The notes under the pieces were generated by a model. That model saw nothing but the letters and a program-made list of their open reading frames with translations. It was not told the origin of the DNA and ran no database searches. A stretch of DNA of 64,000 nucleotides from Brachybacterium fresconis (GTDB lineage: Bacteria; Actinomycetota; Actinomycetes; Actinomycetales; Dermabacteraceae), in the NCBI RefSeq assembly GCF_017876515.1, contig NZ_JAGIOC010000001.1, positions 1,798,001 to 1,862,000 of the forward strand, given 5' to 3'. Shown here one piece after another: positions 7,054 to 21,263 of the stretch; within the stretch, counting starts at the first letter, position 1, and the number at the start of each line of letters is the position of its first letter. The position numbers were made by a program, and so were the translations under genes.

Positions 7054-7706
7054 GTCTCCCCCCGTCCGTCGGTGTGCTCCCGGTCGGTCTCGGTCGCGGG
7101 GCCGGCTCCGGGGGCGTCGGCCGCGTGATGATCACGGTCGCTGCGGGGGAAGCCCCGCCGCGGCGAGGACGTGCCGCCCTCGTCGGCCTCGGTGGCGTCC
7201 TGGGGGACGTCCTCGGCGCTGGTGAGGTCGGAGCCGAGCTGGTCGTCGTCGGTCGGGGCGAAGCCCTGGGAGTGCATCAGCGCACCGCGGCGCGACTCCT
7301 CCGACAGGGCCTGGGACCACGGCAGCTTCTCGGCGTCCTCGGAGCGGCGGCGACGACGACGCAGCACACGACGGTCCTCGACGTCGTCGGGGACCTCGTC
7401 GTGGCCGAACAGCTGCCAGGCGCGGTAGGCCAGCGCCATGCCGAAGGCGGTGATGCCCAGGGAGATCACGATCGCGGTGAGCACCATCGCGAACGGCAGC
7501 GGGTCGGTCATGTCCTCCGGGTCCCCGGTGCCCTCGAAGGGCGGCAGGCCCGGCGGGCCGGCGGCGACGATGAACAGCAGGTTCACCCCGTTGCCCAGCA
7601 GCACGAAGCCGAGGATCACCCGGGTCAGGGTGCGCTCGAGCACGAGGTAGACGCCGCAGGCGACGAGCACCCCGGCGGTCAGCAGCAGCGCGAGGCTAAC
7701 GGACAT
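7050..7706 (-). CDS. mnhC: Mrp-type Na+/H+ antiporter subunit C with an extended tail
   Basis: Residues 1-110 hold the three NuoK-like helices, with LERTLTRVILGFVLLGNGVN and PLPFAMVLTAIVISLGITAF. The family averages about 115 residues; this one has 218. The extra 105 residues begin after AYRAWQLFG. They start basic (VLRRRRRRSED) and then become acidic and disordered. Its start overlaps the end of mnhA by 11 bases. With mnhF and mnhG this makes three small subunits of one complex that carry long tails. Confidence 0.92.
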   Translation of the reverse strand: MSVSLALLLTAGVLVACGVYLVLERTLTRVILGFVLLGNGVNLLFIVAAGPPGLPPFEGTGDPEDMTDPLPFAMVLTAIVISLGITAFGMALAYRAWQLFGHDEVPDDVEDRRVLRRRRRRSEDAEKLPWSQALSEESRRGALMHSQGFAPTDDDQLGSDLTSAEDVPQDATEADEGGTSSPRRGFPRSDRDHHAADAPGAGPATETDREHTDGRGET

Positions 7707-10620
7707 CGGTCTCCACCTCCTGCTGCTGGTCGATCTGGGCGCCGAGGGAGCGCAGGAAGTCGAGGATGACGCCGACCACCACGAGATACACGCCGGTGTC
7801 GAACAGCAGGGCGCTGGGGAAGTGCAGCTCGCCCAGCAGCGGCACCTGGACCACCGGAGTGACGGTGGAGAACACGCTGCCGCCCAGCAGCGCCGGCAGC
7901 ACGCCGGCGATGACGGCGATGGCCATCCCGATGCCGAGCACGAATCCGGCCTGCACGGGCGCGGCCTCGGAGAGCTCGTAGCGTCCGCCGGCGAGATAGC
8001 GCAGCGCGAGGGCGAGACCGGCGACGAGTCCGCCGGCGAAACCGCCTCCGGGCAGGTTGTGGCCCGCCATCAGCAGGTACAGGGAGAACATCATCATCAG
8101 CGGGAAGGCGATGCGGGTGATCACCTCGAGCACCACCATCCGCCGTTCCGGGGCGAGGGTGAGTCCGGCCGAGAGCCAGGTGCGCCAGCGGTTGCCGCCG
8201 GCGACCTCCTCGGGCCGGGCGTCGAAGTCCAGGACGTTCTGGGGCAGGGTCGAATCGGTGCGGCGCTTCCAGATCGAGGTGTCGGTGTCGAGGTCCCGGA
8301 CGCGGGAGATCGACTGCTCGCGCCGGGTGACGAAGATCAGCGAGGCGACGCCCGTGGCGACCACCAGCAGCACCGAGATCTCGCCCATGGTGTCCCAGAC
8401 GCGGGCGTCGACCAGGGTCACGTTGACGACGTTGTGGCCGCCGCCGATCGTGTAGGCCTTCTCGATCAGTCCGGGTCCGAGGGGCGCGAGGTAGCGGGCG
8501 TCGGCGGCGTACAGGGCGGCGCCGCACAGCACGACGGCGGTGCTGATCGCGATCGCCCACCGGCCCCAGGCGCCGATCTTCAGCGGTCGGCGCGAGAAGT
8601 GGGTGGGCAGCCGGCGCAGCACCAGCACCAGCACCACGGTCATCGCGGTCTCGACCAGCACCTGGGTGGTCGCCACGTCCGGGGAGCCCGCGACCAGGAA
8701 CAGGACCGCGACGGCGTAGCCGGTCACGGAGATCAGGAACACGGCGCGCAGGCGGCGCCGGGAGCGAGCCGCTCCGAGAGCCGCGAGCGCTGCGACCGGC
8801 AGCACGATCAGCTCGACGGGGTGGTGGAAGAGCACCAGGTTGTCCGGCACCGGCGACAGGGAGACGGCGATCGGGGCGACCAGGGCGATCAGCACCAGCA
8901 GCATGGTGCCCAGGGTGTAGGGCAGCGAGCCCCGCTGGAACAGCGGCGTGACCGCGACCGCGGCGGAATCGACCAGACGCATCACGCGGCGGAAGGCGCG
9001 CTCGGAATCGATCCGGTCGAGCATCTCCTCGTTCGCCCAGCTCTGCGGGGAGACCTTCTTCTGGAACCGGGCCAGCGGCTTCGCCGCCAGGCACGCCAGG
9101 ACCCCGACGCCGAGGGCGACGGCGGAGGCCAGCAGCGGCACCCCCAGGTGCGGGATCACCGCGAGGTGGACGGTCTGACCGGTCTCGGGCAGCACCGAGG
9201 AGAAGCCCCGCAGGATCGTCTCCAGCGGGCCGGTCAGCGCCGCCAGGGCGACCGACAGCACGGCGACCAGGGCCGGCGGCAGCCAGAACAGCACCGGGAT
9301 GGTCGGCTTCTGCACCGCGGGCGCTCCCGGGGCCGTGCCGAAGGCACCGTGGACGAATCGCCAGGAGTAGGCGACGGTCAGGATCGAGCCGACGACCAGC
9401 GCGATCAGCAGGATCCGGTGCCAGGTCTGGCCGTACCAGAGAGCCGTGAACAGCGCTTCCTTGGCGACGAAGCCGTACAGCGGCGGCACCGCGGCCATCG
9501 AGGCCGCCGAGACGATGCCGATCACGGCGACCATCGGCGCGACCTTCGCCACGCCGGAGAGCACTCGCAGGTCACGGGTGCCGAACTTCTTGTCGATGAT
9601 GCCCACAACCATGAACAGCGGGGCCTTGAACACGGCATGGGCGATGAGCATCGCCAGCCCCGCCAGCAGGGCGTCGTGCGTGGCCACGCCCGCCACGGCG
9701 GAGAGGAAGCCGAGCTGGGAGACGGTGCCGTAGGCCAGCAGCAGCTTGATGTCGGTCTGTCGCAGGGCACGCCAGCCGCCGAGGATCATCGTCGCCGCTC
9801 CCAGCGCCGCGATGATCATGGTGATGATCTCCAGGTGGGTCAGCGCCGGTCCCATCCGCAGGATCAGGTACACCCCGGCCTTCACCATCGCCGCGGCGTG
9901 GAGGTATGCGGAGACCGGGGTGGGCGCGGCCATCGCGCCGGGCAGCCAGAAGTGCGTGGGGACCAGGGCGGACTTGGTCGTGGCCCCGGCCAGGATCAGC
10001 AGCACGGCGATGATCAGGAACGGCCCGGCCTCGCTCCACATCTGCGAGGCGACGATCTCCGAGAGCCGCAGGGAGCCGGCCTCGGCGGCGACCATCAGCA
10101 GCCCCACCAGCATCGCCAGTCCGCCGGCGGTGGTGGAGATCAGCGCGTTCATGGCCGCGCGGCGGGATGCCTGCTTCTCCTGGTAATGGCCGACGAGCAG
10201 GTAGGAGAAGACGGTCGTGAGCTCCCAGAAGGTGTAGAGCACCATCACGTCGTCGGAGAGCACCAGACCGACCATGGCGCCCGCGAAGGCCGTCAGCACG
10301 CCCGCGAAGCGGCCCAGCCCCGGTTCGGTGTTCTTGAAGTACCGCGCGCAGTACAGCAGCACGATCGCGCCGATGCCGGTGGCGATCAGGGCCATCACCC
10401 AGCTCAGCGGGTCCAGGCGGAAGGCGAGGTCGATGCCGAAGGCGGGGATCCACGGGACCGAGATCTCCAGCGGATTCTCGGCGAGGGCGACGGGATCGAT
10501 CGTGGCCAGCCAGATCGCGGACGCGGCGGGCACCGCAGCCAGCGGGAAGAACGCGCTGCGCCCCATCAGCCGCACCAGGAGTGGCCCCAGCAGGGCCGCC
10601 ACCAGATGGGCGAGGAGCAT
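7696..10620 (-). CDS. mnhA: Mrp-type Na+/H+ antiporter subunit A fused to subunit B
   Basis: First and largest gene of the operon, 974 residues from the ATG at 10620. Residues 1-490 or so are the NuoL-like antiporter core, with the conserved segment LVPTHFWLPGAMAAPTPVSA. A middle region of about ten helices follows, and the last 150 residues match MnhB (GHNLPGGGFAGGLVAGLALA), so A and B are one polypeptide, as in many actinobacteria. An in-frame ATG at 10644 would add eight residues; neither start has a good ribosome site. I prefer 10620 because the first helix begins MLLAHLVAALLGPLL. A -10 box sits upstream at 10672-10677. Confidence 0.93.
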   Translation of the reverse strand: MLLAHLVAALLGPLLVRLMGRSAFFPLAAVPAASAIWLATIDPVALAENPLEISVPWIPAFGIDLAFRLDPLSWVMALIATGIGAIVLLYCARYFKNTEPGLGRFAGVLTAFAGAMVGLVLSDDVMVLYTFWELTTVFSYLLVGHYQEKQASRRAAMNALISTTAGGLAMLVGLLMVAAEAGSLRLSEIVASQMWSEAGPFLIIAVLLILAGATTKSALVPTHFWLPGAMAAPTPVSAYLHAAAMVKAGVYLILRMGPALTHLEIITMIIAALGAATMILGGWRALRQTDIKLLLAYGTVSQLGFLSAVAGVATHDALLAGLAMLIAHAVFKAPLFMVVGIIDKKFGTRDLRVLSGVAKVAPMVAVIGIVSAASMAAVPPLYGFVAKEALFTALWYGQTWHRILLIALVVGSILTVAYSWRFVHGAFGTAPGAPAVQKPTIPVLFWLPPALVAVLSVALAALTGPLETILRGFSSVLPETGQTVHLAVIPHLGVPLLASAVALGVGVLACLAAKPLARFQKKVSPQSWANEEMLDRIDSERAFRRVMRLVDSAAVAVTPLFQRGSLPYTLGTMLLVLIALVAPIAVSLSPVPDNLVLFHHPVELIVLPVAALAALGAARSRRRLRAVFLISVTGYAVAVLFLVAGSPDVATTQVLVETAMTVVLVLVLRRLPTHFSRRPLKIGAWGRWAIAISTAVVLCGAALYAADARYLAPLGPGLIEKAYTIGGGHNVVNVTLVDARVWDTMGEISVLLVVATGVASLIFVTRREQSISRVRDLDTDTSIWKRRTDSTLPQNVLDFDARPEEVAGGNRWRTWLSAGLTLAPERRMVVLEVITRIAFPLMMMFSLYLLMAGHNLPGGGFAGGLVAGLALALRYLAGGRYELSEAAPVQAGFVLGIGMAIAVIAGVLPALLGGSVFSTVTPVVQVPLLGELHFPSALLFDTGVYLVVVGVILDFLRSLGAQIDQQQEVETDVR

Positions 10621-10671
10621 CGAGTACACGCAGTCTCCGTCCATCGTGCGGGGGTGAAGGGGGCCGCAGAC

Positions 10672-12322: not shown

Positions 12323-13231
12323 TCAGGCGAGATGGTCGGGATCGACGAGGAATCCCTCGAGGTCGACGACGTAGCCGCCGACGGTCTCGGTGAGCAGTCC
12401 CGCGATCAGCCCGATCCGCCGGTAGGCCTGCGACCAGCGCTCGGCGGTCTCGGCGTCCGGCGACTCGACGGCGTCCTCGGCCTCGTCGGTCGGCACATGC
12501 ACCAGCTCGTAGTCGACCGCGTCGTCCATCCAGCTCAGCGCCGCCAGAGCCACCGGTCGGGAGCTGCGCGCCACCCGCACCTCGAGGTGGCCCCCGTCAT
12601 CCAGGTCGATGGTGGCGCTGTATCCCGGTCGGGAGATGCCCTCGGCGACCTGATCGAGCTCCGCCTCGGGTTCCAGCGGCGCCAGGAGCTGGGCGAACGA
12701 CTCCGGGGCCAGAGCGTGCGGGGAGACCACGGTCAGGTCCCGCACGTGGAAGGGATGCGGCTCCAGACGGTGGCCGTCGTCGGTGACCACGGCGCCGTAC
12801 AGCCTCCGACCCAGCGACCAGACGAGGTCGAGAGCGCGCCGCTCGGCCCCGAAGGGCACGCCCTCCGGGAAGGCCCTCCCGTAGCCATGGGAGTCGGTCA
12901 TGCCCTCGGGCATCGGATCCTCCCGCTCACGCGGCGCGTCCACGGTCCAGCGGCCGGCGCCGCGCGGGGAGTGATCCGGCACCAGGCGGGTGTCGTCCCC
13001 GCAATCGATGACCCCGTCGGGCCCGAGCTGCGCCTGCGGACGGACGTTGCGCACCATCGCCAGCACGTCCTGCGGGTCGGTGTCCCTCGGCAGCTGCAGA
13101 CGGTGGCCGGTGCGGGTCGGCACGGCGCTGTCGGTCGCAGTGCCGTCGGTCGCAGTGCCGTCGGTCGCGGCGCCGTCGGTCTCGGCACTGGTCGGCGCGG
13201 TGCCGTCGGTCGGGACACTGGGGTCGGTCAC
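12323..13231 (-). CDS. Hypothetical protein coupled to dcd
   Basis: 302 residues, no family recognised. The GTG at 13231 is chosen because GGAGGG lies just upstream and GTGA overlaps the dcd stop by 4 bases; the open frame extends further upstream inside dcd. Residues 1-35 or so are low complexity, built on TDG repeats. The rest is a soluble, acidic protein with [17 protein letters not shown] and an ending [15 protein letters not shown]. No transmembrane segment or signal peptide. Coupling to dcd suggests co-expression, but gives no direct clue to function. Confidence 0.7.
13124..13177. repeat. 15-base tandem repeat in the hypothetical gene
   Basis: GTGCCGTCGGTCGCA-like units recur about three and a half times in frame and encode the TDGTA repeats near the N-terminus of the 12323-13231 protein. 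Copies differ by one or two bases. Confidence 0.75.
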
Positions 13232-13821
13232 TGTCCCTCCTGCACGGGGATCGAGGTGCGATGGAAGTTCTGGGCGGAGCGGGAGGGCGTCGGCCCCCGC
13301 TGGCCGAGGTATCGGTTGAGGTTGCCGGCGCTGCCATAGGGGTTGTCCGCGGCGCTCGAGAGCCGGAAGAAGCACAGCTGGCCGATCTTCATGCCCGGCC
13401 AGAGCGCCACGGGCAGGGTCGCCATGTTCGACAGCTCCAGGGTGATGTGCCCCTGGAAGCCGGGGTCGATGAAGCCGGCCGTGGAGTGTGTCAGCAGGCC
13501 GAGCCGTCCCAGCGAGCTCTTGCCCTCCAGCCGGGCGGCGACGTCGTCGGGCAGCGTGATCTGCTCGTAGGTCGAGGCGAGCACGAACTCGCCGGGGTGG
13601 AGCATGTACGGCTCCTGCGGGTCCACGGCGATCTCGCGGGTGAGCTCCCCCTGCTCCTGGGCGGGGTCGATCATCGCGTACTTGTGGTTGTCGAAGAGTC
13701 GGAAGTAGCGGTCGATCCGCACGTCGACGGAGGCGGGTTGGATCATCGCATCGTCGAAGGGGTCCAGTCGCACCCGTCCGGCCTCGATCTGGCTCCGGAT
13801 GTCATGGTCGCTCAGCAGCAC
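13228..13821 (-). CDS. dcd: dCTP deaminase
   Basis: 197 residues starting [20 protein letters not shown], the usual N-terminus of the family. The GTG at 13821 is preferred over the GTG at 13830. It matches homologues, and a -10-like TAGGGT (13829-13834) ends 7 bases upstream. The active-site block [20 protein letters not shown] includes the catalytic Glu/Ser/Arg region around residues 110-130. Actinobacterial enzymes of this type may also hydrolyse dUTP, giving dUMP directly; the sequence alone does not decide this. The stop overlaps the next gene's GTG. Confidence 0.95.
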
Positions 13822-14002: not shown

Positions 14003-14073
14003 GCGGGTGTAGTTCAATGGTAGAACTTCAGCTTCCCAAGCTGACAGCGCGGGTTCGATTCCCGTCACCCGCT
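14003..14073 (+). tRNA. tRNA-Gly (anticodon CCC)
   Basis: A 71-base cloverleaf. Acceptor arms GCGGGTG/CACCCGC pair fully with discriminator T. The D loop contains AATGGTAG, the anticodon arms TCAGC/GCTGA close the loop TTCCCAA, and the T arm carries GGTTCGATTCC. The anticodon at loop positions 3-5 is CCC, reading GGG. CCA is not encoded. A strong hairpin follows 8 bases later. Confidence 0.95.
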
Positions 14074-14080
14074 CCCCCGG

Positions 14081-14193: not shown

Positions 14194-14769
14194 ATGCCCA
14201 AGATCATCGGAGGCTCCCTCGAGGAGCATCGCGAACGCACGCGCGAGAAGATCTTCGTCGCGCTCGCCGAGCTGCTGGAGACCCAGGACTTCGAGACGAT
14301 CACGTTCTCGCGGATCGCGACCGCCGCCGACGTCGGCCGCACCGCGATGTACAACCACTTCCCGGACCGCGAGACCCTGCTGGTCGAATACGCGCTGCAC
14401 GAGACCTCCGACTACATCGCCCAGCTGCGGGCCGGGGTCAGCGAATCGGCCACGCCCCGCGAGGCCGCGCTCGCCTACGTGCGGACCCAGCTGGAGCTGA
14501 CGGTCTCCTTCCACATGCCGCAGTCGATGGGCAAGGCGTCCCTGACCCCTGATGCGGTCGCACGGATGCGCGAGCACGTGGTGCTGATCGAGGACGTGCT
14601 GCGGCGGATCGTGGACGACGGGATCGCCAGCGGCGACTTCGACGCCGACCTCGACGTCGACGCGACGGTGCCGATCATCAACTCGCTGCTGGTCGGATCG
14701 GCCGCCAGAGGGTTCTCGCGCCCCGCTCTGGAGCAGTTCGTGCTGCGGGGGCTCGGCGCGGCGGTCTGA
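14194..14769 (+). CDS. TetR-family transcriptional regulator
   Basis: 191 residues. The helix-turn-helix is at about 18-62, with FSRIATAADVGRTAMYNHFP followed by DRETLLVEYAL, the canonical TetR N-terminus. The C-terminal ligand domain (about 70-190) is all helical and unclassified. It is flanked by tRNA-Gly and a long hairpin, so it is transcribed alone. The nearest possible target is the membrane gene ending at 14944 on the other strand, but that operon starts 4.6 kb away. No operator is obvious. Confidence 0.9.
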   Translation: MPKIIGGSLEEHRERTREKIFVALAELLETQDFETITFSRIATAADVGRTAMYNHFPDRETLLVEYALHETSDYIAQLRAGVSESATPREAALAYVRTQLELTVSFHMPQSMGKASLTPDAVARMREHVVLIEDVLRRIVDDGIASGDFDADLDVDATVPIINSLLVGSAARGFSRPALEQFVLRGLGAAV

Positions 14770-14943: not shown

Positions 14944-17433
14944 TCAGCGCGAGCCTCTGCCGCCGCCCTTCCGAGTGCCTCGTCGCTTCGCCCGCGTCCC
15001 CGAGGAAGCGGGTCTGGTCACGGCCGCCGAGACCTGCTCGGCGTCCTCCTCCTCGACCTCCCAGTCCATCGCGTCCAGACCGTCGGAGGGCTCCTCCTCG
15101 GCGCGTGAGAACAGCGGGCGGGAGATCTCCCCGATCTCATCCTCCAGGTCGACCTCCGCCGCCGTCGAGGCGATCACCCAGCAGGTCAGCGCGATGATCA
15201 GGGCGATGACCGCGATCCCCCAGCGCAGGTACATGCTCGTGCCGTCGGTGCTCATCGCCACCATGGCGGAGACGCCGAGGGCCGAGAGCAGGGACGAGGT
15301 CAGCAGCAGCGGCAGCGCCACCGAACCGATCGCGGAGCGCAGGGTGCCGGTCAGCACCGCGCCGCCGAGGGCGCCGGAGTGGCCCCAGGAGCCGGGACCG
15401 CCGTAGCGGCCGTGGCCGATGATCGCGGCCGCGTTCTCCAGGGTCGCACCGGCTCCGAGCGACCACAGACCGAGAGCGAGGGCGGTCAGGGCGGCCCCGA
15501 TCACCAGCCCCGGCAGCGCGGCCGGACCGAGTCCGAAACCGGCCACGATCGGCATCAGCACGACGATCACCACGGCGGGCAGCACGGCACGACGCACCAT
15601 GTCCGGAAGGTCCTCGAGGTTCACCACGGCGCGCTTCTCGAGCATCGCCGCCCGGGTCTCGACGACGGCGCTCGCGCCCAGCCGGCGGGCGCCGTCCAGG
15701 AGCGAGGCGGTCACCAGCAGGACCGCGACCACTCCCAGGCCGATCCCGCCCACCAGCGGCAGGGAGGTGGGGCTCAGCCCATGCAGGGCGCGGTCCTCCC
15801 AGACGGTCGCCGCCCGCGGTGCGACCTGGAGCGCGGTGGCGATGGGCCCGAGCGCGGCCAGCGCCGTGAGCGTCGCCGCGAGCAGCAGAGCGGCCCGGGG
15901 GCCGGTGGCGGCGCCGGCGGCGGCATCGCGCAGCGAGCGCTCCGCCTCCGGGCGGTCCACGAGGGTCGGCGCCATCAGCGATCCGGCGTGGGCGACGGCC
16001 ACCACCAGTGCCCCGAGGCCCGTGAAGGACAGCAGCGCCAGCGCCATGGCCGGCACACCCGCGCTGAGCACGCTGAGCACGCCGGCGACGATCAGCAGCA
16101 GCGCGAGGGCCCCCGCCGCGAGCAGCGCGGTGGAGCCGAGGCCGGCGGTGGTGCCCAGCGCGCCGCCGGTGCGGCTGGTGCGGGCGGTGCGCAGCACGGT
16201 GGAGCCGATCCTGTTGCCCGTCCCGTCCAGCAGCAGGATCGCGGCGAGCGCGACGACGACGCCGAGCCCGAGGGCCGAGGCGGCCGCGACGCTGGGCGAG
16301 ATCGTGTACAGCGTGACCATGTCCAGCAGGGCGCTCGCACCGCGGGAGTCGTCGGTCTGGGAGACCAGCGTCCCCAGATCGGAGCCCGCCTGGGCGATCT
16401 GCGGCTCGAGCTGTTCGCGCGGCAGCGGCTGCGGGCCGGTGATGGCCTGGTCGGTGAAGTTCTCCATGCCCACCTGGGGGAAACGCAGGTCCTTGTAGGC
16501 CGAGGGGAGCCACAGCGCGGCGGCCGCGACCATCCCGGCACCGCCGAGGAGGGCGGGGACGACCCCGCCCAGGCGCAGCGCCCCGCGCTCGTGCCCGGGC
16601 TGTCCGCGGTGCGGGACGAGGGCGACGACGCCGCCGGCCAGCAGCGCGACGCCGAGGGCGAGCAGCACCACCAGGATGCCCTCGGCTGCGAGCACCGGGA
16701 CTCCCAGCAGGACGCCGACGGCCGCGGCCGCGGTGGTCAGCGCGACCAGGTCGGCGCTGCCGGCGGCGCCGCGGCGGAACATGCGCGCCCCGCGCAGCGG
16801 CGCGGCTCCGAGGTTGGCCGGGTCGTCGGTGTCGATCTCGTGCTCATCGGCGCCGACGAGGATCGCGGAGGAGGCCGCGGCGGTGTCGAGCGGAGCGGCG
16901 GTCGCGCGGAGGGCGAGTGCCGAGATGGCCGCGCCCCCGGCCAGCGCCATCAACGCCGAGGAGCCCGCGGCCTGCAGGAACCACACGACGATGACGACCG
17001 GGAGGATCGCCACGGCCAGCGCCCCGGTGGTCGTCAACGCCCCCAGTCGGGAGATGAGGGCGGGGCGACGCTCGGGATCCAGGCCCAGCGAGGCCAGCTG
17101 CACGGCCAGCCCGCGCCACGCGGCGAACGGTCCCAGCGCCAGGCCGACCACCATCATCGCCGAGCGCAGGATGCGGTCGTCGGTCGATCCGGGCACCAGG
17201 TACAGCAGCACCACGGCGGGCAGTCCGACCCACAGGATGATCGACCCTGCGGCAGACAGCTGTCGGCCGAGACGACGTCCGAGGTCGTCGTCGACCTCGG
17301 CGGCGTCCTCGTCGCGCTGCAGACGGCTGGGGACGACCGCGCCGGCGACCAGGGCGGCCACGGAGAGCAGGCCGAGCACCAGCAGGGTCACGGCGATGTC
17401 ATCGCCCAGGGGGAATTGCGTGATCAGGTCCAA
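14944..17433 (-). CDS. Membrane protein resembling a membrane pyrophosphatase without its catalytic residues
   Basis: 829 residues with about 15-16 hydrophobic helices and a basic Lys/Arg/Gly tail. Several stretches match ion-pumping pyrophosphatases (HppA) in order and spacing. Residues 193-232 (VGADEHEIDTDDPANLG...GAAGSADLV) sit where active enzymes have DVGADLVGK, DDPRN, DNVGDNVGDCAG and ADLFE. Residues 417-440 (ARTSRTGGALGTTAGLGSTA) match the TG-ATNIIAGLAVGLEST loop. Residues 675-710 (HGRYGGPGSWGHSGALGGAV) match HGGKGSDAHKAAVVGDTVGD. The substrate-binding lysine and most metal-binding aspartates are replaced by Gly, Ala, Arg or Leu. It probably cannot hydrolyse pyrophosphate. An extracytoplasmic stretch at about 308-370 looks extra. 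The homology is read by eye. Confidence 0.7.
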   Translation of the reverse strand: MDLITQFPLGDDIAVTLLVLGLLSVAALVAGAVVPSRLQRDEDAAEVDDDLGRRLGRQLSAAGSIILWVGLPAVVLLYLVPGSTDDRILRSAMMVVGLALGPFAAWRGLAVQLASLGLDPERRPALISRLGALTTTGALAVAILPVVIVVWFLQAAGSSALMALAGGAAISALALRATAAPLDTAAASSAILVGADEHEIDTDDPANLGAAPLRGARMFRRGAAGSADLVALTTAAAAVGVLLGVPVLAAEGILVVLLALGVALLAGGVVALVPHRGQPGHERGALRLGGVVPALLGGAGMVAAAALWLPSAYKDLRFPQVGMENFTDQAITGPQPLPREQLEPQIAQAGSDLGTLVSQTDDSRGASALLDMVTLYTISPSVAAASALGLGVVVALAAILLLDGTGNRIGSTVLRTARTSRTGGALGTTAGLGSTALLAAGALALLLIVAGVLSVLSAGVPAMALALLSFTGLGALVVAVAHAGSLMAPTLVDRPEAERSLRDAAAGAATGPRAALLLAATLTALAALGPIATALQVAPRAATVWEDRALHGLSPTSLPLVGGIGLGVVAVLLVTASLLDGARRLGASAVVETRAAMLEKRAVVNLEDLPDMVRRAVLPAVVIVVLMPIVAGFGLGPAALPGLVIGAALTALALGLWSLGAGATLENAAAIIGHGRYGGPGSWGHSGALGGAVLTGTLRSAIGSVALPLLLTSSLLSALGVSAMVAMSTDGTSMYLRWGIAVIALIIALTCWVIASTAAEVDLEDEIGEISRPLFSRAEEEPSDGLDAMDWEVEEEDAEQVSAAVTRPASSGTRAKRRGTRKGGGRGSR

Positions 17434-17477
17434 GAGACAGCTTCCGACGTCGGGGCTCTGCAGGGTCGCAGGGCGGC

Positions 17478-19409
17478 TCAGGCGAGCAGGGACAGATCCA
17501 GGTGGGTGGGGGCGCCGTCGACGACGCGGATCGGCACGCCCCAGTCCTGCTGATGCATGTGGCAGGCGGGGAACTCGACCGCGGGATCGGCGTCACAGGA
17601 GGCGGCACGGGCGCTGACGTGCAGGACACCCTCGGAGTAGGCGGGATCCAGGGTCAGGGTGCGCTCCAGCGACGTGTCGACGCCGGACCCGTCGGTCAGC
17701 ATGGCCGACGGAGTGGTGGAGACGGTGACCTGGGTGGAGGGGCCCAGCGAGTCGTCGAGCTTGTGCCCCTCGGGCGGGGTGAACAGCACGCGCACCGTCA
17801 GCGGCCCGGGACCGACGTCGGTGACGGGGCGCTCGGAGCGCTGGGCGCCCAGGTCGATGACGCGCTCGGCTGCCTTGGCGACCGGCACCCAGGTGACGCG
17901 GTGGGCCCCGGACTCCACCACGATCAGCTGACCGATGCCGTCGACCGGGGGGCCGACGATCGCATCGGAGGGCTCATCGAGATCGGTCGCGACGGTGACC
18001 ACGGTGACCGAGGCGGACGACTCGGCGTCGTCCTCCGCGTGCTCCTCGATGATCCGGATCGACCCGTTGTAGGTATCGACGACCGCGATGCGGCCGTCGG
18101 GCAGAGCGGTGACCGCCAGGGGATGCTGGAGGCGCGCGACGTCCGCGGAGCCGTCGACGTGGCCGAAGTCGAACAGCCCCTGTCCGACGAGCGTGCTGAC
18201 CTGCATGGTCTGTGGGTCGAGCACGCGCACCGCGGAGGTCTCGGAGTCGGCGACGACGATCCGGCCGTCGCGCAGCTCGTCGAGGCCGGAGGGCTGCGCC
18301 CACCAGGAGGAGACGGCGGCGCCGTCGATCAGCCCTTCCTGGGTGGTGCCGGCGAGCACCATCAGGGCTCCGGTGACCGGGTCGAAGGTCCACAGCTGGT
18401 GGATGCCGGCCATGGCGATCACCGCGCGGTTCAGCACGCGGGACCAGGTCAGATCCCACGGGGTGGACAGCGCGTAGCTGCGCGCATCGCCCTCGCCGCG
18501 CGGCTGCTGATCGCCCTGCATCCACTGCGAACCCGAGCCGGCGACGGTGCTCACCTCGGTCGCGGTGCGCGAGCGCAGCAGGCGATCCTGACCCACCTTC
18601 ACCCCGCGCAGGAGATGATTGGAGGTGTCGGTGACCAGCAGGTCGTAGCCGACCTCGGCGGCGACGTCGTCCGGGAGCGCGAGAACGCCGTTGGGCTCGG
18701 CGAACTGGGCGGTCGCGCCGTCGCCGTCCGCGTGGCCGCGGGCGCCGGTGCCGATGATCTCGTCGACGGTGTGGCCCTCGTCCTGGAAGACCACAAGGCG
18801 GTGCTGGCCGGCGTCGGAGACCACCAGACGCCCGTCGGGCAGCGTGGTGAGCTTGGACGGGAAGCGGAGGGTCTGGGGCACCCGCTCGGTCAGCACGGTC
18901 GGCGCGGGTCCGCGGCGCAGCGAACCGTCGGCCTCCCCTTCGACGACGAGGCGGGCGACCAGCTGGTCGATGTTCTCCCCGTGGCCCTCGCCGGAGAGGT
19001 TGCCGGCGATGCGCCCGTGGGTGTCGAGCACCATCAGGGTCGGCCAGGCACGGGCGCCGTACTCGGTCCAGGTCTCCAGCTCCGGGTCGTCGATGACCGG
19101 GTGGGAGACCTCGTAGCGCTCGATGTTCGCCGCCAGCGCCTCGGGATCCTTCTCGAACTCGAACTTCGGGGAATGGACGCCGACGATGACCAGCTCATCG
19201 GCCCACTTCTCCTCCAGAGGACGCAGCTCGTCGAGCACATGCAGACAGTTCACGCAGCAGAACGTCCAGAAGTCCAGCAGCACGATCTTGCCCCGCAGCG
19301 ACTCCAGGTCGAGGTCGACGCCGCCCGTGTTCAGCCACCCGCGCCCACGCAGCGGGGAGCCGTGGGCCCGGTCGGTCAAGGGCGCGGAGGGGTCGCTCGG
19401 TGTGGTCAT
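17478..19409 (-). CDS. NHLRC2-like thioredoxin / NHL-repeat protein
   Basis: 643 residues. The thioredoxin-like domain (about 25-160) has the redox motif WTFCCVNCLHVL at residues 48-59, plus VIVGVHSPKFEFEKDPEAL and WPTLMVLD. An NHL beta-propeller follows (about 180-500), with repeated LPDGRLVVSDAGQHRLVVF-type units. The last 120 residues form a beta-rich domain. This order is that of human NHLRC2 and its bacterial relatives, whose function is unclear. No signal peptide, so it is cytosolic. It sits 44 bases upstream of the pyrophosphatase-like gene on the same strand and probably shares its transcript. Confidence 0.88.
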   Translation of the reverse strand: MTTPSDPSAPLTDRAHGSPLRGRGWLNTGGVDLDLESLRGKIVLLDFWTFCCVNCLHVLDELRPLEEKWADELVIVGVHSPKFEFEKDPEALAANIERYEVSHPVIDDPELETWTEYGARAWPTLMVLDTHGRIAGNLSGEGHGENIDQLVARLVVEGEADGSLRRGPAPTVLTERVPQTLRFPSKLTTLPDGRLVVSDAGQHRLVVFQDEGHTVDEIIGTGARGHADGDGATAQFAEPNGVLALPDDVAAEVGYDLLVTDTSNHLLRGVKVGQDRLLRSRTATEVSTVAGSGSQWMQGDQQPRGEGDARSYALSTPWDLTWSRVLNRAVIAMAGIHQLWTFDPVTGALMVLAGTTQEGLIDGAAVSSWWAQPSGLDELRDGRIVVADSETSAVRVLDPQTMQVSTLVGQGLFDFGHVDGSADVARLQHPLAVTALPDGRIAVVDTYNGSIRIIEEHAEDDAESSASVTVVTVATDLDEPSDAIVGPPVDGIGQLIVVESGAHRVTWVPVAKAAERVIDLGAQRSERPVTDVGPGPLTVRVLFTPPEGHKLDDSLGPSTQVTVSTTPSAMLTDGSGVDTSLERTLTLDPAYSEGVLHVSARAASCDADPAVEFPACHMHQQDWGVPIRVVDGAPTHLDLSLLA

Positions 19410-19524: not shown

Positions 19525-20295
19525 TCACCAGGTGGCGATCCATGCGGCCAGGTCCGGGTCGGTCAGGGAGCCCAGGACGAGATCGGCCTCCGGAGCGGGA
19601 TGGCCGGGTGCCGGCACCGCGATGAGCCGCAGCCCGGCGTCCCGGGCGGCGCTCGCTCCGGTTCCGGAGTCCTCGAGGGCGAGGGCCTGATCGGGCTGGA
19701 CCCCGAGGGCACGGGCGGCCCGGGCGTACATGTCGGGGGCCGGTTTCGGGTGCTCGACGGTGTCCGAGGCCTCCAGCACGGCGAAGTGCTCCCGCAGGCC
19801 GCCGAGGCGCAGCTTGTCCTGAAGGGATTCCAGCCAGGAGTTGGAGGCGCAGCCCAGCGGGACGCGGGCCCCGGCCGCTTCGACGATCTCGCGGGCGCCG
19901 GGCAGCAGGCGGATGCCGCCGCCGAGCTCCCGGTCGAAGGCGACGTGGAGGTCGGCCAGGAGAGCTTCGCTGCTGCTGTTCGAGCGGTCGGCGAGGATCG
20001 TCGCCGCGTCCTCGATGGTCGAGCCGTGCAGCGCGGTGTCGTCCTCCGGGCGCAGCTGCGCGCCGTGGGCGGCGACCACGGCGTCCTGGGCGAGCTGCCA
20101 GACGCTCTCGGTGTCCAGCAGCAGCCCGTCGCAGTCGAAGACGACCGCCTGCGGCGTCCAGTCGCCGAAGACCTGCCGGAACCGCTCGGGATCGCCCGTG
20201 CCGGGAGCTGGAGCCGGTGTGCCGGGGGCAGGAGCCGGCGTGCCGGGGGACGTCGATCCGGCCGTCCGGTCGCCGGCACCGGGGGCGGGAGTCAT
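19525..20295 (-). CDS. HAD-superfamily hydrolase, beta-phosphoglucomutase-like (copy 2)
   Basis: 256 residues. An N-terminal tail of about 45 residues is built of PAPGT repeats from an 18-base DNA repeat. The HAD core then begins with the nucleophile motif VVFDCDGLLLDTES. GCASNS (motif 2), HPKPAPDMY (motif 3 lysine) and LALEDSGTG (motif 4 acidic residues) are all present, so it should be active. The substrate is unknown, probably a sugar phosphate. Start ATG overlaps the upstream paralogue's stop by 4 bases. Confidence 0.9.
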   Translation of the reverse strand: MTPAPGAGDRTAGSTSPGTPAPAPGTPAPAPGTGDPERFRQVFGDWTPQAVVFDCDGLLLDTESVWQLAQDAVVAAHGAQLRPEDDTALHGSTIEDAATILADRSNSSSEALLADLHVAFDRELGGGIRLLPGAREIVEAAGARVPLGCASNSWLESLQDKLRLGGLREHFAVLEASDTVEHPKPAPDMYARAARALGVQPDQALALEDSGTGASAARDAGLRLIAVPAPGHPAPEADLVLGSLTDPDLAAWIATW

Positions 20296-21002
20296 CGCCG
20301 CACGTCCCAGCCGGCGATCCAGTCGGTCAGCACGTCGTCCTCGAGGGTGGTCAGGCGGCGCTGGGCGCGGGGGTCCTGCCCGGGGATGGACGGCACGGCG
20401 ATCAGGTGCAACCCGGCGGCGAGCGCGGCGGCCGCTCCGGTCTCGGAGTCCTCGAAGCCGAGGCAGTCGGTGGGGTCGACGCCGAGCATCTCGGCGGCCC
20501 GCAGGTAGATGTCCGGCGCGGGCTTGGGATGGGTGATGTCCTCGACCGCGACGTGGGCGTCGACCACCGCGTCCAGGCCGGTGGCCTCGAGCTTGTGGTC
20601 GAGCATGTCCCGCGGGGAGTTCGAGGCGATCGCCACCGGGCGCTTCGCGGCCACCGCCCGCACGGTCTCCATGCCGCCGGGCAGCGGAACCAGCTGCTCG
20701 CGGCCGCGCAGGCCCTCGCGATGGGCGGCCAGCAGCTCCTCGGCGACGATCTCAGGAGACTTGTCGACCAGGCGGCCGATCACGGTCACGACCATCTCCG
20801 CCGACTGTCCGGTGACCTGACGGCGGGTGGCGGGGTCCATCCGGACCTGGTGCATCGCGAGGTAGGCGTCCTGCACGCGAACCCATTCGGCCTCGGTGTC
20901 CACCAGCAGTCCGTCGAAGTCGAAGATGACGGCGGCGGGAGTCCAGGAGGGCGGCCAGTTGTCCAGCGGGGACGACGGCAGGGGCGCGGGTGCGGAGCTC
21001 AT
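20292..21002 (-). CDS. HAD-superfamily hydrolase, beta-phosphoglucomutase-like (copy 1)
   Basis: 236 residues from the ATG at 21002; an open frame extends 25 residues further but adds nothing recognisable. Motifs VIFDFDGLLVDTEAEW, IASNSP, HPKPAPDIYLRAAEML and LGFEDSETGAAAA are complete. It and the next gene share the same layout and the phrase W-TP-A-V-FD-DGLL-DTE, so they look like a tandem duplication. Both would act in the cytosol on small phosphorylated metabolites; which ones cannot be told. Confidence 0.9.
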   Translation of the reverse strand: MSSAPAPLPSSPLDNWPPSWTPAAVIFDFDGLLVDTEAEWVRVQDAYLAMHQVRMDPATRRQVTGQSAEMVVTVIGRLVDKSPEIVAEELLAAHREGLRGREQLVPLPGGMETVRAVAAKRPVAIASNSPRDMLDHKLEATGLDAVVDAHVAVEDITHPKPAPDIYLRAAEMLGVDPTDCLGFEDSETGAAAALAAGLHLIAVPSIPGQDPRAQRRLTTLEDDVLTDWIAGWDVRR

Positions 21003-21263
21003 GATGGCCCCAGCGTATCGATCCCGCCTGCACGATGTCTCACCGCTGAGCGACTCTGCGCCCCGCGTAATCCGCACGGCCCGGTGGGCCGGCTGCCCTC
21101 GCCGAGCACCTCACGCTCCCCTGTGCACTGGCACGCTCCGCTGGGCGCTACCCCGCGCCGCCGTGCGCTGCCCCGCTCCGCCATGCCGCGAAAAGTGCCA
21201 GAAACATGGAACCTCACACGACACAACACGGCAGCGGGGCGACGCGGGCGCTCGGCGCGGAGG
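21003..21263. other. gene-free spacer before metY
   Basis: 261 bases between the HAD pair's start and the metY stop. No reading frame, tRNA or clear terminator. About 40 bases around 21187-21230 are noticeably richer in A and T than the rest (CGCGAAAAGTGCCAGAAACA and following) and may hold the HAD promoter, but no box is convincing. Confidence 0.4.

Follow-up and report, generated by a model that had tools for sequence, protein, structure and literature searches.

Membrane pyrophosphatases (mPPases) are treated, in the parts of PMC6882861, PMC5150537 and PMC11210485 drawn on here, as one enzyme family with highly conserved catalytic residues. Our reference system is HppA, the H+/Na+-pyrophosphatase (PF03030), with solved structures from Thermotoga maritima, Vigna radiata and Pyrobaculum aerophilum. 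No degenerate mPPase was found described in the literature searched (few subscription journals were covered), in agreement with the initial annotation of the locus considered here, which knew of no such family. The locus lies in a 64,000-nucleotide stretch of the Brachybacterium fresconis genome (‘the window’: contig NZ_JAGIOC010000001.1, positions 1,798,001 to 1,862,000), where a gene at 14944..17433 on the minus strand encodes an 829-residue protein that we call dHppA (degenerate membrane pyrophosphatase). We put at about 85% the probability that dHppA is a true mPPase homologue and now a membrane protein with no enzymatic role, forming a pseudoenzyme clade within the Dermabacteraceae.

Homology and predicted fold

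The gene is a single open frame. Its product scored 28.8 bits (E 6.7e-7) against PF03030, narrowly missing the curated cut-off of 29.7; relatives in genomes G064 and G030 exceeded the cut-off (60.6 and 46.4 bits). The NCBIfam pyrophosphatase models matched weakly (45.6 bits, with 912 required). In a family-level comparison by hhalign we observed homology to mPPases along the length of the protein (probability 100%, E 1.3e-39, 676 columns). Identity to the solved proteins was 16–19%. A single-sequence phmmer search of PDB gave only a chance match to an unrelated fusion glycoprotein entry; the family profile found mPPases instead.

The predicted structure had the complete 16-helix mPPase fold, a predicted extra helix (residues 734–756) and a C-terminal tail (C-tail). 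Homodimer contacts of mPPases are made by helices 10, 13 and 15; in helix 13, residues G563 and G567 were kept in at least 26 of the 28 dHppA sequences defined below. The start codon, TTG, is preceded by a ribosome-site-like motif, GGAAG (17441..17445, minus strand), found in identical form in 15 of 28 loci inspected for it; several others had a GGAG-like motif, and in three the site was cut by the frame end. Most orthologous frames started at the same TTG/GTG codon.

Loss of catalytic and pump residues

The core alignment, A1, comprised 25 sequences, namely those of G062 and G064 together with 23 of the 37 copies from Brachybacterium. Copies outside A1 (G001, G003, G005, G006, G015, G016, G021, G022, G023, G025, G026, G027, G029 and G058) were omitted for reasons that include near-duplication, fragments, copies in pieces and starts missed by the search pattern. 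Addition of G060, G063 and G065, without G061, made the set of 28. For active enzymes, 20 loci were tried and 19 kept; L040 fell out when frames were chosen by the motif DNVGDN.GD, and conservation at 6.35–6.43 in the 19 is circular for the same reason. Nine further active Brachybacterium loci stood outside the set: seven carried all four motifs, L034 carried three and L027 showed them on translation.

Residues of the hydrolytic centre (16 in number), coupling funnel and ion gate were taken as listed in PMC6882861, mapped through the profile alignment and counted in the 28 sequences. As N12.53 of that list aligned with no Asn, its place was given to the conserved Asn that lies seven residues ahead of K12.50. 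Just one of the 16 hydrolytic-centre residues was identical in ≥80% of the sequences. K5.58, D5.65, E5.76, D6.35, the helix 12 Asn, K15.64, D16.31, K16.38 and D16.39 were found in none of the 28; D5.61 was seen in four, D6.39 in two, and D6.43, D15.61 and D16.35 in one each, with Glu replacing D15.61 in 14. D11.57 was retained in 26. Two further positions were conservative in most sequences: 5.77 (Asp in 16 and Glu in nine more, 25/28 together) and 16.38 (Arg in 27/28). In the coupling funnel, R5.50 (24/28) and D6.50 (23/28) were largely kept; D11.50 and K12.50 were absent from all 28, with Arg at 12.50 in 16. None of the four gate positions tested (6.53, 6.54, 16.46 and K16.50; the tally is without S5.43 and 6.57) was retained in any sequence; Ala, Leu or Val mostly take their place, and 16.46, Asn in the active set, is Ser in three. 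With these positions lost, transport of H+ or Na+ by the known route is unlikely.

The same pattern was seen over a wider set of 59 charged or polar positions (those kept in ≥18 of the 19 active enzymes): in A1, 38 were lost, 12 kept, six partly kept and three unaligned. None of the nine conserved lysines of active enzymes survived in A1, while seven of the 12 arginines did. Three segments (coordinates on the minus strand, as for all protein segments below) illustrate the change. In loop 5–6, the former Mg/pyrophosphate (PPi) site (residues 193–222, 16768..16857), D6.39 and D6.43 have become R217 and R221, and an Asn of active enzymes has become R214; E197 of this loop is invariant in dHppA. 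Residues 417–424, ARTSRTGG (16162..16185), match the TSRTG segment of active HppA, and R421 is invariant in 28/28. In residues 675–700, GRYGGPGSWGHSGALGGAVLTGTLRS (15334..15411), D16.31, D16.35 and D16.39 are lost and K16.38 is replaced by R699.

These counts bear out the initial annotation, which had described an intact 829-residue frame with HppA-like segments, had expected the mPPase fold (now present as a prediction) and had judged the PPi- and Mg-binding residues to be gone. We also looked for catalytic Asp and Lys residues at other places; among the invariant columns there was no substitute acidic or lysine set. A rebuilt catalytic site, by which dHppA would still be a pyrophosphatase or another phosphohydrolase, could call on D11.57, the acid at 5.77 and E197; yet D6.43 and D16.39, the water-activating residues according to PMC5150537, have given way mostly to Arg and Ser, all nine lysines are gone and, outside the C-tail, no cluster of acids has newly become invariant, so that we regard this explanation as very improbable. 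Thus dHppA is a member of the mPPase homology family with the residue set of neither the enzyme nor the pump. Judged by these residues, PPi hydrolysis and H+/Na+ pumping by the known mechanism should not be possible for it, and we infer a different job.

Selection and origin

The ratio of nonsynonymous to synonymous substitution rates (dN/dS), computed against the window gene for five pairs at 75–93% protein identity, was 0.20–0.29, and 27 residues were invariant in 28/28 dHppA sequences. The gene is under purifying selection. Active hppA gave 0.165–0.186 (five pairs); dHppA evolves faster. This faster evolution, together with copies in pieces in G021 and G022, is what could be expected of a decaying duplicate retained by chance; against it stand frames of full length throughout Brachybacterium and in further genera (identity in A1 goes as low as 32%), the low dN/dS and the invariant residues. 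The frame is neither broken nor neutrally evolving, and we find the decay explanation hardly credible. In a tree with the 19 active sequences, the 28 dHppA grouped together, with a stem of 1.6 substitutions/site (support 0.951). A single clade on a long stem makes one origin followed by inheritance the simplest reading.

Distribution with and without active HppA

At least part of the gene was present in 37 of 38 Brachybacterium genomes; G006 has a 119-residue piece, and G058 counts among the carriers solely through a weak second PF03030 match. In G024, where the NHL gene (see below) runs into the contig end, no dHppA was found. In other Dermabacteraceae genera six of nine genomes carry it (four of genus g23, with g24 and g25). 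Outside the family the degenerate form was not seen among the matches listed for 248 genomes of the order, nor among those listed for 296 genomes of the phylum searched with PF03030 (E 0.001; of the best matches listed, that of G502 was the weakest, at 1.1e-48); both listings could hide weak second copies. It was likewise not found in 396 phylum genomes searched with the A1 profile (E ≤1e-20, two candidates scored per genome). Of 11 non-family loci from the latter search, ten have each of the three motifs searched for intact; the remaining locus, which is shorter, has one. Weak PF03030 matches in G071, G140 and G207 were set aside, having no match to the dHppA family profile.

Active hppA (>600 bits) was found in 18 of the 38 Brachybacterium genomes (B. 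fresconis itself and 17 others) and in G066. Of the 20 Brachybacterium genomes with no active hppA match, 16 are ≥99% complete and all 16 keep dHppA. With the six carriers from other genera added, dHppA without an active hppA match occurs in 22 of the family's 42 genomes that are ≥90% complete, and all 22 are ≥99% complete (99–100%). A soluble pyrophosphatase was found in 46 of 47 family genomes. Thus dHppA persists where no active HppA is detected.

The initial annotation had asked how widely the degenerate form occurs and whether the genome has an active hppA: the form is widespread in the family, and B. fresconis carries an active hppA (G000:C1:1482169-1484220). Its suggestion that the frame has been selected for another purpose is upheld by the dN/dS values and the conservation; its suggestion of a regulator of a true HppA is not supported as a general role. 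A regulatory pseudoenzyme could act as the inactive partner in a mixed dimer, as mPPases are homodimers according to PMC6882861, and 18 Brachybacterium genomes do carry both genes. However, dHppA and active hppA do not co-occur regularly, given the 22 genomes above, and in B. fresconis the two genes lie ∼330 kb apart. We think such a regulator quite improbable.

Charge reversal and conserved loops

Summed over 27 aligned positions of the pocket, funnel and gate, the net charge was –7 in all 19 active enzymes and –1 to +6 (mean +2.92) in the 25 A1 sequences. R214, R217, R221, R494, R502 and R699 replace Asn, Asp, Asp, Asn, Asp and Lys of active enzymes, with Arg present in 21, 17, 24, 21, 23 and 27 of the 28 sequences, respectively. 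R176, R699, R502 and R421 are conserved in dHppA.

We take the assignment of inner and outer loops in dHppA to be that of the known mPPase topology. With this assignment, dHppA loops carry 28 Lys and Arg inside and seven outside. Mean loop entropy, with topology by homology, was 0.61 bits (inner) and 1.60 bits (outer) in the active set; for dHppA it was 1.33 and 1.19 bits. The excess conservation of the catalytic face seen in the active set is gone in dHppA. The further idea that conservation has been inverted from inside to outside was not kept, the difference within dHppA being non-significant.

Loop 8–9, extracytoplasmic by homology (residues 310–379, 16297..16506), is 70 residues long, only 18 of them aligned with the active HppA of B. 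fresconis, and contains the conserved NFTD...PREQLEPQI. The motif VWEDRALH of loop 12–13 (residues 544–551, 15781..15804), extracytoplasmic by homology as well, is conserved. In the C-tail (residues 756–829, 14947..15168), mostly of low confidence in the structure model, D762, L763 and D765 are invariant in 28/28; PLF (773–775) is invariant in the 25 A1 rows and is not kept in the g23 sequences L124 and L125.

The arginine replacements and the reversed charge sum lead us to the idea of an anion pocket. The most likely mechanism, which we put forward tentatively, would be that of a dimeric membrane receptor or valve. The cytoplasmic pocket, formerly acidic and Mg-loaded, would now be lined by conserved arginines; it might bind directly, with no Mg involved, either an anion of the phosphate type or an acidic stretch of protein, for example the conserved C-tail, and binding might be relayed through the retained helix bundle to the conserved extracytoplasmic loops 8–9 and 12–13. 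One could also imagine an anion transporter, with the pocket alternating access and carrying a phosphate-like or other anionic solute. The intact predicted helix bundle, the reversed pocket charge, the four conserved arginines named above and the HAD-family hydrolases encoded nearby fit this proposal, but the Ala, Leu and Val at the gate positions make the old central path look hydrophobic, and the HAD genes are present also in G067 and G068, which have no dHppA; we consider a transporter rather doubtful.

Gene neighbourhood

Upstream of dHppA, 44 nt before its start and on the same strand, is a gene for a 643-residue thioredoxin-like protein with NHL repeats (17478..19409), preceded by conserved genes for two HAD-family hydrolases (HAD 1, 19525..20295, and HAD 2, 20292..21077, which overlaps HAD 1). 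Downstream, a convergent TetR-type regulator gene (14194..14769, plus strand) adjoins dHppA in 22 of 24 loci longer than 8 kb; it was not seen beside dHppA in L052, where the contig ends, or in L067. The order HAD2-HAD1-NHL-dHppA on one strand was the same in 24/24 of these loci (14/14 named Brachybacterium, eight further Brachybacterium, L067 and L068), and the NHL gene directly adjoins dHppA in G060, G061, G063 and G065 too.

Such constancy would suit a role of dHppA in anchoring or scaffolding the NHL-thioredoxin protein at the membrane. Against this, the NHL-thioredoxin gene occurs in 70 of 119 order genomes, as well as in G066, G067 and G068, which do without dHppA; we hold the scaffold role to be unlikely. 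In G067 and G068 the HAD-HAD-NHL genes are followed directly by TetR; together with the wider distribution of NHL genes, this indicates that the neighbours do not depend on dHppA: either it entered a neighbourhood that already existed, or these two genomes have lost it. In G129 a HAD-like gene sits between NHL and TetR, in the place of dHppA. The NHL gene was not beside hppA in the three genomes compared (G036, G043 and G047). A charge-based tie between the NHL-thioredoxin protein and dHppA was rejected: nine such proteins, with or without adjacent dHppA, all had isoelectric points of 4.55–4.98.

Some other features were observed at these loci. In two genomes of genus g23, one 483-residue frame (L125:2818-4266 and L124:9252-10700) matches both HAD hydrolases, a possible fusion. 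In the window, a 350-residue frame beside dcd (12323–13375, minus strand) is conserved in the genus (45–69% identity) and has no Pfam match; dcd and the TetR gene are separated by a tRNA-Gly (ccc) gene (14003–14075, plus strand). A long frame some 4 kb away from dHppA (7696–10644, minus strand) resembles an Na+/H+ antiporter subunit (MrpA-like).

Discussion

Several observations weigh against the view of dHppA as a conserved pseudoenzyme with an arginine-lined pocket. Part of the old network remains, as R5.50, D6.50, D11.57 and an acid at 5.77 are mostly kept (24, 23, 26 and 25 of 28). Two more distant pairs (∼70% identity), where the synonymous rate dS no longer rises, gave a dN/dS of 0.41. 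The gene is in pieces in G021 and G022 (only those two, as far as seen), and it is not indispensable, being absent from G066, G067 and G068 of the same family. Once the acids had been lost, the positive-inside rule by itself could account for the enrichment of Arg on the cytoplasmic side. Finally, outer and inner loops of dHppA did not differ significantly in conservation (Mann–Whitney p 0.24).

All in all, dHppA is probably an old pump scaffold put to new use. It might even be the first use of the mPPase scaffold other than PPi hydrolysis, a suggestion we make with considerable reserve: acid-to-arginine swaps would have produced a magnesium-free anion site, in a receptor or an anion carrier, present with no active enzyme beside it in roughly half of the Dermabacteraceae genomes sampled. 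A selected branch devoid of nearly all catalytic residues would show that the mPPase pump fold is capable of another role, and would provide a naturally inactive scaffold on which folding could be studied apart from catalysis. It would also caution against taking every match close to the PF03030 cut-off for a pump. Species with no active HppA make the function of dHppA directly testable by deletion.

Comparison with known mPPases

Another divergent mPPase occurs in Brachybacterium, the second mPPase type of Micrococcales (∼600 bits to PF03030), represented by L040 of G013 (609 bits); other genomes of the order also have matches of ∼600 bits. Unlike dHppA, L040 keeps ADCTGDNAGD and GDTVGDPFKD; with these acids retained, divergence alone need not remove the catalytic site. 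In G066, the active HppA is part of a 1359-residue frame (L077:6459-10535) with an acidic Ala-rich tail of several hundred residues and two similar terminal repeats.

The active HppA of B. fresconis (801.8 bits to PF03030) is homologous to dHppA, with 22% identity in the profile alignment; its catalytic motifs are intact, unlike those of dHppA, and its loop 8–9 is shorter. In comparison with HppA in general, dHppA has the Mg-PPi site, the water-activating Asp pair, the coupling Lys and the tested gate positions replaced, and a pocket that is basic where that of HppA is acidic.
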